The notes under the pieces were generated by a model that worked only from the letters and a program-made list of their open reading frames with translations, was not told the origin of the DNA and searched no databases. The translations under genes and the position numbers were made by a program. Of a stretch of 51,786 nt of DNA, positions 19,911 to 48,311 are shown in pieces; within the stretch, counting starts at the first letter, position 1; each line of letters begins with the position of its first letter. The stretch comes from Actinomycetes bacterium (GTDB taxonomy: Bacteria > Actinomycetota > Thermoleophilia > UBA2241): contig JAKPOQ010000047.1 in assembly GCA_029547745.1 (NCBI GenBank), positions 1 to 51,786 on the forward strand, read 5' to 3'.

Positions 19911-20699
19911 TCACGACGTCAGGAGCGCCCCGCCGTCGACGACGACGTTGACGCCCGTCATGCCCTCGTCCTCGAGGCAGAGTCGCACGGCGGCGCAGAT
20001 CTCGCCCGGCGTCACGAGCCGTCCTTCGCTAGTCTTTGCAGCTGCTCGGAGGGTGGCTGCGCGGTGGTCGTCGTCGTCGAGATCGACCGGGCCCGGAGCC
20101 ACCCCGCAGACGCGGACGCCGTCGGCGGCCCAAGCCCGGGCGAGTTCCTTCACGAGGTGGATCTGCGCCGCCTTCGCGGCGCCGTGCGCCGCGAAGGCGG
20201 CGCACGGCTGCGATCCCAGGTAGTCGGTGATGGCGACGATCGTCCCGCGAGAGATCGGCGAGCGGCTGTGCTCTGAAGAGACCGGCGTCTCACCGTTGCG
20301 GGCGGCCGGCTCGATCATGACGTTGCGGGCGGCACAGGCCGCGAAGAAGAACCCTCGCGCGATGACGTTGAACGAGAGATCCCACGCAGCCTCGTCGATC
20401 TGGTCCGGCGGCGTCGGCATGAACGGTCCGCTGGCCGCGTAGACGAGCGCGTCCAGTCCGGAGAGAGCACGTCGCGCAGCAGCTACGGCCTCGCGGGCTC
20501 CGGTCGCCGTCCCGGTGTCTGCAGACAGTCCGATGGCGCGCGGAGGGCCGCCGAGGGATTCCGCGACGCGTGTCGCGGCTGTTCCGTCGCGCGATGTGAG
20601 GGCCACGCGAGCACCGGCGTTCGCGAGGTCGGCGGCGAGCAGGCGACTGAGGTGGCGGGCGCCTCCGATGACGAGGGTACGTGTGCCGACCAGCTTCAT
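19911..20699 (-). CDS. Short-chain dehydrogenase-like protein with degenerate active site
   Basis: Rossmann-fold SDR of 262 residues. The nucleotide motif is altered: IGGARHLSRLLA in place of TGxxxGxG, closer to the GGARRIG form of pteridine reductase/FolM-type SDRs. The catalytic segment reads GTIVAITDYLGSQP, then FAAHGAAKAA: Asp stands where Ser is usual (as in pteridine reductases), Lys is kept, but the catalytic Tyr of YxxxK is His. The end VAPGPVDLDDDD and GMTGVNVVVDGG is standard. So it may bind NAD(P) and lack normal redox activity, or use His. It runs convergently with pucR and divergently from the Lrp regulator. Confidence 0.82.
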   Translation of the reverse strand: MKLVGTRTLVIGGARHLSRLLAADLANAGARVALTSRDGTAATRVAESLGGPPRAIGLSADTGTATGAREAVAAARRALSGLDALVYAASGPFMPTPPDQIDEAAWDLSFNVIARGFFFAACAARNVMIEPAARNGETPVSSEHSRSPISRGTIVAITDYLGSQPCAAFAAHGAAKAAQIHLVKELARAWAADGVRVCGVAPGPVDLDDDDHRAATLRAAAKTSEGRLVTPGEICAAVRLCLEDEGMTGVNVVVDGGALLTS

Positions 20700-28586: not shown

Positions 28587-28663
<77 letters not shown>

Positions 28664-40180: not shown

Positions 40181-41242
40181 TTGGACGGCAGGGACGCGCA
40201 GCAGAGGCGCAAGCCCGGTCGCCGTCAGCCCGAAGACGAGCAGCCGGCGTCGCCTGCCGACGCGCCGGCGGGCGACTCCCTCCTCCGTCCATTGACCATC
40301 GGTGGTCTCGTGCTTGACCGCCGTCTGTTCATGGCCCCGATGGCGGGGCTCACGACGCAAGCCTTCCGGCGCAGCGTACGCCGCTGGGGAGCGGGTCTCG
40401 TGCACACTGAGATGATCGCCGCCATGGGGATCGTCCATGGCAATCGCCGGACGCTCGACTATCTTGCCTGCGGCAGCGACGAACATCCGATCGGCTTCCA
40501 GCTCTTCGGCGGCGACGCGACCGCACTCGCGCGCGCCGCGGAGGCGTGCGTCGCCGCCGGCGCCGACCTCGTCGACCTGAACATGGCGTGCCCGGTCAGG
40601 AAGGTCGTCAAGACCGGCGCTGGGGCGGCGCTCCTCGGCGCGCCCGAGGCGGCCGAGGCCGCCGTGCGCGCCGTGGTCGCCGCCGTCCCGGCGCATGTGC
40701 CCGTGACGGTGAAGATCCGCAGTGGGCTGCGCGAGGGCGACGAGGCGGGGCGCCGTTTGGCGCCCCGCCTCGTCGCCGCCGGCGCAGCCGCGATCTGCGT
40801 CCACCCGCGGACGGCGGCGCAACTCTATCGCGGCCGCGCCGACCATACGGTGACGGCGACCCTGGCGGCGGAGCTGCCCGTCCCCGTCGTCGCCTCCGGC
40901 GACGTCGACGGGCGCGCCGCCGCCCTCGCCCTGCTCGACCGCGGCGCGGCCGCCGTCATGCTGGCGCGCCACGCCGTGGGTCGACCGTGGCTCTTCCGCG
41001 AGATCCTCGCCGATGGACCGCCGCCCTCGAACGCAGAGCGAAGCGCCGAGGTGCGCCGCTTCGTCGCCGAGGTCTTCGCCACCATGGGGCCGCGCGGCGT
41101 CGGCTACCTCCGTCAGTTCTGGCCCCGGTTCCGACGGGCTCGCGTCTTCGAGCGCGAGTTGGCCACGGAGCTCATGAAGGCGACCAGCGAGGCTGAGGTC
41201 AGCGTGCTGCTTGCGCGCCTCGAGGCTCCGCGAACGGCCTGA
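40181..41242 (+). CDS. dus: tRNA-dihydrouridine synthase
   Basis: FMN enzyme that reduces uridines in the tRNA D loop. 353 residues with a basic, Pro/Ala-rich leader of about 35, then FMAPMAGLTTQAFR, IGFQLFGGDA, the active-site LNMACPVRKVVKTGAGAALL (catalytic Cys in ACPV), VTVKIRSGLREG, ICVHPRTAAQLYRGRADH and ASGDVDGRAAA with HAVGRPWLFREI. DusB-like by these motifs. TTG 40181 is the likely start. The coding sequence contains a perfect 19-bp inverted repeat at 40736-40777. Confidence 0.93.
   Translation: MDGRDAQQRRKPGRRQPEDEQPASPADAPAGDSLLRPLTIGGLVLDRRLFMAPMAGLTTQAFRRSVRRWGAGLVHTEMIAAMGIVHGNRRTLDYLACGSDEHPIGFQLFGGDATALARAAEACVAAGADLVDLNMACPVRKVVKTGAGAALLGAPEAAEAAVRAVVAAVPAHVPVTVKIRSGLREGDEAGRRLAPRLVAAGAAAICVHPRTAAQLYRGRADHTVTATLAAELPVPVVASGDVDGRAAALALLDRGAAAVMLARHAVGRPWLFREILADGPPPSNAERSAEVRRFVAEVFATMGPRGVGYLRQFWPRFRRARVFERELATELMKATSEAEVSVLLARLEAPRTA
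40736..40777. repeat. Perfect 19-bp inverted repeat inside dus
   Basis: 40736-40754 pairs without mismatch with 40759-40777 around GTTT. It encodes the GDEAGRRLAPRLVA region; aligned by eye with family members, the protein length here is normal, so no insertion is implied. Confidence 0.9.
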
Positions 41243-44150: not shown

Positions 44151-44190
44151 CCCCAGGCCGCGCGGCCGGGAGAGGCCGCGCGGCCTGGGG
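44151..44190 (+). terminator. 17-bp hairpin before clpC
   Basis: CCCCAGGCCGCGCGGCC and its exact complement surround GGGAGA; TCGCGTTCCG follows, so no U-run. It probably ends the greA-lysS-ligase transcript. The remaining leader to 44326 contains a -10-like TACCAT at 44213 without a good -35; no CtsR-type heptad repeat is evident. Confidence 0.68.
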
Positions 44191-46889: not shown

Positions 46890-48311
46890 GTGAGCCGGGC
46901 GACGACCGTCTTCACTTGCTCGCAGTGCGGGCGCCGCGAGGCCAAGTGGCTTGGCCACTGCCCCGACTGCGGCGCCTGGGACTCGTTCGTCGAAGAGGCG
47001 CTGACCGAGGTCACGCCGCGCGGACGAGCACGGAGCGGCAAGGCGCAGGGGGGCGGGGGCTCCGCCCCCGCCCCCCTGCGCCTTGCCGCCGTCGCCTCGT
47101 CCGCGACCGAGCGCTTCTCCACCGGCATCGACGAGCTCGACCGGGTGCTCGGCGGCGGCATCGTGCCCGGTTCCCTCGTCCTCGTCGGCGGCGAACCGGG
47201 CATCGGCAAGAGCACGCTCCTGCTGCAGGTGCTCGACAAGGTCGCGGGCGCCGGTCGTTCTACCCTGCTCGTCTGCGGGGAGGAGTCGGCGGCGCAGGTC
47301 AAGATGCGGGCGGAGCGCGTCTGCGCCGCCTCCGACGACATCGCCGTGCTCGCCGAGACGCAGCTCGAGACCGTCATCGAGAGCGTGGCCGCCGCGCATC
47401 CGGCCCTCGTGGTCGTCGACTCTGTGCAGACCCTCTACAGCGACGGCTTCACGTCGGCGCCGGGGAGCGTGAGCCAGGTGCGCGAGGCCGCCGGCGCCTT
47501 TCTGCGTCTCGCCAAGGCGACGGGCACGGTCGTGATCCTCATCGGGCACGTCACGAAGGAGGGCGCCATCGCCGGCCCGCGGGTGCTCGAGCACATGGTC
47601 GACACGACGTTGCAGTTCGAAGGCGACCGCCACCGCTTCTACCGCACCCTGCGGGCGACCAAGAACCGGTTCGGGTCCACCGACGAGCTCGGCATCTTCG
47701 AGATGACCGGGTCGGGCCTCGTGCCCGTCGCCGACCCGTCCCGGCTCTTTCTCGACGGCGCCGGGCCTTCGGCGGGCGCCGTCGTCCACATCGCCGTCGA
47801 GGGCACGCGCTGCTTCCCCGTCGAGGTCCAGGCGCTGGTCAGCCGCAGCGAGATGGCGGTGCCCCGCCGGGTGACGAACGGTTTCGACCGCAACCGCCTG
47901 GCGATGATCATCGCCGTCCTCACTCGTCATGCGCGGCTGCCTTTGTCATCGCACGACGTCTTTGTTACTATTGCAGGCGGAATCCGCATTGACGAACCCG
48001 CGGCAGACCTTGCCGTCGCCCTCGCCATCGCGTCGGCCGAGTGCGACGTGCCTTTGTCTCCGCGGGTCGCAGTGTTCGGGGAGATCAGCCTGACCGGTCG
48101 ACTTCGTCCTTGCAGCCAGTCTGAGCGCCGCGTCGGCGAAGCGACACGTGTGGGGTTCGCGCGTGTCGTGGCGCCGGTGAGCGGCGCTGCTGCCCAAGGG
48201 GACCAGCGAGTCTCCGGAGCCGACGACCTCCGCGCCGCGATGGCCTTGGCGTTCGATCCCACCCCGGCACGGCGAGGCCACATCGCGGCCAGTGACGACA
48301 AGGGGGTCTGA
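46890..48311 (+). CDS. radA: DNA repair protein RadA (Sms)
   Basis: Helicase-like protein that processes recombination intermediates. 473 residues: N-terminal zinc finger (FTCSQCG...GHCPDCG), RecA-like core with GGEPGIGKST near residue 102, the RadA-specific KNRFGSTDE near 257 and a C-terminal Lon-protease-like domain (VFVTIAGGIRIDEPAADLAVALA, split at Gly). GTG start four bases after the clpC stop. The linker between zinc finger and core (GKAQGGGGSAPAPLRLA) is encoded by a perfect 25-bp inverted repeat. A promoter-like sequence lies in the 3' part. Confidence 0.97.
   Translation: MSRATTVFTCSQCGRREAKWLGHCPDCGAWDSFVEEALTEVTPRGRARSGKAQGGGGSAPAPLRLAAVASSATERFSTGIDELDRVLGGGIVPGSLVLVGGEPGIGKSTLLLQVLDKVAGAGRSTLLVCGEESAAQVKMRAERVCAASDDIAVLAETQLETVIESVAAAHPALVVVDSVQTLYSDGFTSAPGSVSQVREAAGAFLRLAKATGTVVILIGHVTKEGAIAGPRVLEHMVDTTLQFEGDRHRFYRTLRATKNRFGSTDELGIFEMTGSGLVPVADPSRLFLDGAGPSAGAVVHIAVEGTRCFPVEVQALVSRSEMAVPRRVTNGFDRNRLAMIIAVLTRHARLPLSSHDVFVTIAGGIRIDEPAADLAVALAIASAECDVPLSPRVAVFGEISLTGRLRPCSQSERRVGEATRVGFARVVAPVSGAAAQGDQRVSGADDLRAAMALAFDPTPARRGHIAASDDKGV
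47036..47088. repeat. Perfect 25-bp inverted repeat inside radA
   Basis: 47036-47060 is the exact reverse complement of 47064-47088 with a TCC loop. Because of the symmetry, both strands encode a GKAQGGGG-type peptide here. It is the longest perfect palindrome I found in the window and lies in the disordered linker of the protein. Confidence 0.93.
47943..47971 (+). promoter_or_regulatory. Promoter-like sequence inside radA, possibly for carD
   Basis: TTGTCA (47943-47948), 17 bp, TACTAT (47966-47971), in a locally low-GC patch of radA. Transcripts would reach carD after about 340 nt. The codons overlap a conserved RadA motif, so chance is possible. Confidence 0.42.

Follow-up and report, generated by a model that had tools for sequence, protein, structure and literature searches.

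A perfect in-frame palindrome in the radA linker of an Actinomycetes bacterium whose genome carries many unrelated coding palindromes

A perfect palindrome inside radA

The stretch of DNA analysed here (the window, 51,786 nucleotides of contig JAKPOQ010000047.1 from an Actinomycetes bacterium, assembly GCA_029547745.1, whose genome we call G000) carries an intact radA gene, and its match to the TIGR00416 'sms' model exceeds the cut-off of 403 bits (Table 1). In the linker separating the zinc finger and the ATPase, with the reading frame kept, lies an inverted repeat of 55 bases in total (26+3+26, 47035-47089), in which an exact scan finds zero mismatches. The preliminary description of this DNA had given it as 25+3+25 without mismatch at 47036-47088, coding in frame within the RadA linker; the repeat is indeed exact and grows by one further pair, and its place in the linker is confirmed by both the ORF and the TIGR00416 match. 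As RNA, positions 47015-47110 have a computed fold of -91.8 kcal/mol (z = -10.3).

Table 1. Coordinates of radA, the parts of its palindrome and the two other coding palindromes with 19-bp arms in the window
Feature	Position	Strand	Details
radA (sms)	46890..48311	+	intact, 473 aa, GTG start; ORF list, NCBIfam TIGR00416 547 bits
Imperfect outer extension	47019..47105	+	42-nt arms, 86% complementary
Perfect palindrome, left arm	47035..47060	+	26 nt; exact scan
Palindrome loop, TCC	47061..47063	+	exactly codon 58 (Ser58); exact scan; same codon is the apex in relatives
Perfect palindrome, right arm	47064..47089	+	26 nt; exact scan
Perfect coding palindrome, 19+4+19	40736..40777	+	in CDS 40181-41242; imperfect in G007 and G006
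Perfect coding palindrome, 19+3+19	20164..20204	-	in ORF 19911-20699

Such a repeat is far beyond chance, since shuffled sequences never reach a 26-bp arm: the best arms are only 9-13 bp long when the whole window is shuffled by a third-order Markov model, and in 300 synonymous-codon shuffles of the radA linker the best arm averages 6.2 and never exceeds 16. Composition alone was rejected on these two kinds of shuffle. An intrinsic terminator, which combines a GC-rich stem with a T-run, can be set aside too; no T-run (U-tract) lies 3' of the stem, which is also missing from the results of the terminator scan, so that the premature transcription termination suggested in the preliminary description is unlikely. 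Rfam covariance models run over the whole window match only a tRNA at 28587-28660, and a known RNA family at the palindrome was rejected accordingly.

The stem in related genomes

Our order sample consists of 15 genomes (G000 to G014), every one of them from a single family, and their linkers were aligned by anchoring on a conserved motif 3' of the linker. In this alignment the loop falls on the same radA codon in most family genomes. In G000 all 24 counted pairs match (26 in all), and in G001, a sister species of the same genus, the stem is imperfect, with 21 of 24 pairs and one T-G. A perfect 19-bp stem in G006 and a 14-bp stem in genus g6 both differ from G000 in arm sequence; G011 and G007 have 14 perfect base pairs each, G014 and G012 have 12 of 14, G009 has 8 of 14 in an ungapped alignment and G004 has 6 of 14, while in G003 an assembly gap falls at the site. 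The comparison of radA linkers among relatives that the preliminary description had proposed therefore finds a stem which stays in position and arms which change in sequence.

These changes are coordinated across the stem. Several pairs are G-C, C-G, A-T or T-A depending on the genome, and between G000 and G001 the adjacent pairs 4-7 from the loop have all changed on both sides. The 14 pairs compared in nine family genomes give 126 in total; 106 of these are Watson-Crick and 6 are G-T, against a synonymous-shuffle expectation of 80.3±4.1, and 0 of 5000 shuffles reach 106. Pairing in relatives exceeds that in slid registers (0.58 vs 0.34), an excess that we do not use as proof because shared ancestry predicts most of it. 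Beyond the family the stem is mostly absent, and radA scans of other genome contigs and viral sequences return distant relatives only, at no more than 51% identity. A class relative from another family (G032) has an unrelated 19+3+19 palindrome in its own radA linker (L028; L172:8817-8857), apparently an independent case.

Part of the linker pairing does come from the amino acids, because the Gly codons GGC and GGG, taken as reverse complements, become the Ala/Pro codons GCC and CCC, in register codon to codon. Might the palindrome then be a by-product of coding for a GC-rich Gly/Ala/Pro linker, with no special process behind it? The amino acids alone yield about 80 of the 126 pairs in the family; however, synonymous shuffles miss the G000 stem (0/300), the family sum (0/5000) and the genome-wide count given below, and we regard a mere by-product as quite improbable. 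The answer could also be more mundane, an artefact of assembly or amplification, given that G000 is a 203-contig draft of metagenome type and that an N gap falls on the radA hairpin of one relative (L013). Nevertheless, frame and flanking homology run unbroken through radA, a FolC-like gene and the CDS at 40181-41242, each with its palindrome, and the independent genomes G006, G007 and G011 have perfect stems of different sequence at the same codon, all of which makes an artefact very hard to believe.

A genome rich in unrelated palindromes

One would expect few long perfect palindromes in bacterial coding DNA, as hairpins hold up replication and are cut by SbcCD. Palindromes in general are reported to be over-represented in prokaryotes, chiefly in intergenic DNA, and normally represented in most coding regions (as related in PMC4060949). 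Our window also has perfect palindromes with arms of 19, 19, 17, 17, 17, 16 and 15 bp. One of these, a perfect 17+6+17 at 44151-44190, sits in the gap upstream of clpC (44327), where it could terminate the gene before the gap or act as a regulatory stem.

Our census takes in 519 kb of G000 together with 825 kb of G001 and counts perfect palindromes whose arms measure 15 bp or more, with spacers of at most 12. Because the CDS calls are our own GC3-based ORF picks, the division into coding and intergenic palindromes is approximate, particularly where ORFs are short. G000 has 78 such palindromes in its 519 kb, or about one every 7 kb, and 44 of them lie within called CDS. In its extracted CDS (416 kb) we count 45 at the 15-bp minimum, of which 24 have arms that reach 18 bp or more and 15 have arms that reach 21 bp or more. 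Synonymous shuffles of the same CDS (n=3) contain none at the 15-bp minimum. The corresponding counts in 668 kb of G001 CDS are 16, 6 and 1, with one palindrome of at least 15 in two of the three shuffles. With all DNA counted, this congener thus carries about a third of the load of G000, and with coding sequence alone, between a fifth and a quarter (in CDS, p = 3e-8 at the 15-bp minimum and 6e-6 at a 21-bp minimum), at a GC content in the first sample of 0.70 vs 0.67 in G000. The remaining family members sampled are intermediate, at 3 to 4.4 per 100 kb of CDS in small samples; the class sample has 0.6 per 100 kb; and 80 diverse radA loci (532 kb, mostly of lower GC) have 6 with arms of at least 15, of which 0 are in called CDS. 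The whole G000 genome probably holds hundreds of unrelated perfect palindromes.

The palindromes of G000 have arms of up to 30 bp, short spacers predominate among them, and they lie mainly in less conserved protein regions. ORFs stay open across the coding ones, and both arms are predicted to be translated into functional protein. The longest that we found in G000 are a 30+2+30 within a 599-aa ORF (L138:3419-3480), a 29+3+29 within a 390-aa ORF (L134:2908-2968) and a 29+0+29 outside the called ORFs (L130:5982-6039). The FolC-like gene has a spacerless coding palindrome, 25+0+25 (L138:13338-13387), where G001 is imperfect and has W vs H in G000.

Are these palindromes copies of one another? The preliminary description suggested that the radA palindrome may be a mobile, in-frame palindromic element of a new kind, and proposed a genome search for further copies of the 25-bp arm. 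Across the 2.27 Mb of G000 that search returns a single weak partial match with 3 mismatches, and the palindrome core is present once only; with no other arm copy, the mobile reading fails. In addition, the other G000 palindromes form no sequence family beyond a GC-rich, low-complexity likeness, and a diverged radA stem already sits at the same codon in relatives. A point in favour of mobility is the in-frame 25+3+25 palindrome at L234:1451, the whole segment of which is missing from the G001 orthologue, whether by in-frame insertion or by deletion in G001. On balance we give a mobile element almost no credence. The absence of similar palindromes elsewhere had been named as what would refute it: by sequence they are indeed absent, the arm being unique, but in kind they are plentiful, as many unrelated ones.

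What might make and keep such palindromes?

We think it fairly probable that the radA palindrome is a quasi-palindrome which was perfected, and has been kept perfect, by replication template switching. The nascent strand would fold back at an imperfect inverted repeat, and the polymerase would then copy one arm from the other, perfecting the repeat and sometimes lengthening it in one multi-nucleotide step. The disordered RadA linker would be a good site for this, because its Gly codons reverse-complement its Ala/Pro codons and amino-acid replacements produced by arm copying should be tolerated there; its Gly-then-Ala/Pro amino-acid sequence would seed a codon-registered stem with a one-codon loop. 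The same template switching may have left the many perfect palindromes elsewhere in G000. Processes of this type are documented: template switching perfects quasi-palindromes in E. coli (PMC7202029, PMC6357072) and changes coding sequence in yeast (PMC8604942), it may create and maintain hairpins with compensatory changes, as proposed for hairpins generally (PMC8794818), and an excess of short coding repeats had been put down to it in an earlier proposal (as related in PMC4060949).

The unrelated perfect arms, the mostly short spacers and the imperfect orthologous repeats found in relatives, at radA (G001), at FolC and at the CDS palindrome at 40736, agree with template switching. So do the radA stem that keeps its codon while its arms differ, the surplus of Watson-Crick pairs over synonymous shuffles with only 6 G-T pairs, and the genome-wide surplus of unrelated palindromes. 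Likewise, to judge from the aligned sequences, the two-sided changes in pairs 4-7 by the radA loop would fit a single templated event. Six alignable triplets could be polarised and have 14 arm substitutions on the G000 lineage vs 20 in the sister; as there is no G000-lineage excess, a recent burst is not demonstrated and the process is one that we infer. The pattern that template switching should leave, one arm conserved and the other overwritten, does not differ significantly from what random positions in these genes show, and arm asymmetry is not established because both arms are less conserved than the average of those genes. A single case, L138:14391, has an identity to G001 of 0.93 in the left arm and 0.36 in the right.

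Conservation of the apex codon across genera makes selection for a hairpin the main rival. On this view the radA stem, as mRNA (or DNA), would itself be functional, and selection would keep its pairing at a fixed codon, for example to slow the ribosome between zinc finger and ATPase or to protect or process the transcript. Selection too would hold the apex at one codon across several genera, and this constancy to that extent counts against template switching; the two-sided pair changes and the excess over synonymous shuffles speak for selection as well. However, the stem ranges from 26 bp down to essentially none (the 6/14 of G004 and the ungapped 8/14 of G009), its pairing is more perfect than an RNA stem needs, with few G-U pairs, and comparable palindromes lie in many unrelated genes. 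We consider a selected hairpin unlikely; the translational pausing proposed in the preliminary description would be one of its candidate roles. More broadly, the case is a warning against reading a selected RNA structure into every coding stem that shows covariation.

Nucleases and palindrome load

ExoVII, which has a role in this process in E. coli, and SbcCD are candidate suppressors of such palindromes, and G000 seems to have lost both. None of the 15 family genomes has ExoVII (XseA) above the family cut-off, which it passes in 15 of 25 other class genomes. No credible match to SbcC or SbcD was found in the 203-contig draft of G000, in which RecJ was found; SbcCD is patchy across the family, with SbcC/SbcD present in the sister G001 and a full SbcD in G001, G003, G005, G007, G008, G009 and G013. 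Pooled counts of palindromes with arms of at least 15 are 12.9 per 100 kb for genomes lacking both XseA and SbcD, 5.2 for those with SbcD only, 1.7 for those with both and 0.6 for those with XseA only; since these last, the class relatives with XseA and without SbcD, carry few palindromes, the absence of SbcD alone was rejected as a predictor of load. An explanation of the high G000 load by the family-wide loss of ExoVII and the further loss of SbcCD from G000 is suggestive only, being a correlation in draft genomes whose classes are confounded by phylogeny and whose counts are dominated by two genomes.

E. coli SbcCD cuts the hairpins that palindromes form, and its lower size limit in vitro corresponds to palindromes of 20-36 bp (PMC4245961); many G000 palindromes exceed this limit. 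Exonuclease I, in the words of the title of a work cited in PMC6357072, aborts template switching. A bolder account, which we offer tentatively and as no better than possible, is that loss of ExoVII throughout the family and then of SbcCD in this one species freed template switching, that hundreds of coding palindromes would have followed, the one in radA, itself a repair gene, among the most persistent, and that arm-copying may have become a major source of amino-acid change in linkers. In any case, the pair G000 and G001 offers a natural experiment, both on the factors that keep palindromes in check and on the way in which proteins are shaped by template switching.

Comparison with known systems

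Rickettsia palindromic elements are repeated families of related sequence, about 100-150 bp in length. They resemble the radA case in placing palindromic DNA in frame within genes, but they are longer and their copies are related, whereas the palindromes of G000 are all unrelated and that of radA is single-copy; multiple related copies, by which a Rickettsia-type element is recognised, do not occur in G000.

Quasi-palindrome mutagenesis in E. coli and yeast is alike in that arm copying perfects imperfect repeats and makes multi-nucleotide changes in coding DNA (PMC7202029, PMC6357072, PMC8604942). The difference is that single events or hotspots with short arms are described there (mostly 7-11 bp in the yeast set, PMC8604942), whereas G000 has many arms of 15-30 bp. 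Template switching in RNA hairpins shares perfect stems and clustered compensatory changes with our case, but concerns RNA genes (PMC8794818) rather than protein-coding DNA. We found no published bacterial genome like G000 in the literature searched, which was mostly open-access. The closest published analogue that we found for long perfect coding repeats is the mitochondrial genome of Nematomorpha, in which functional protein genes contain numerous perfect inverted repeats of up to 284 bp (PMC6649704). There, some repeats occupy the same place in several species and their sequences do not form one family (PMC6649704), and G000 similarly has many perfect inverted repeats in ORFs beyond codon-level expectation; the difference is one of setting and size, a bacterial chromosome with arms of up to 30 bp as against mitochondrial repeats of up to 284 bp.
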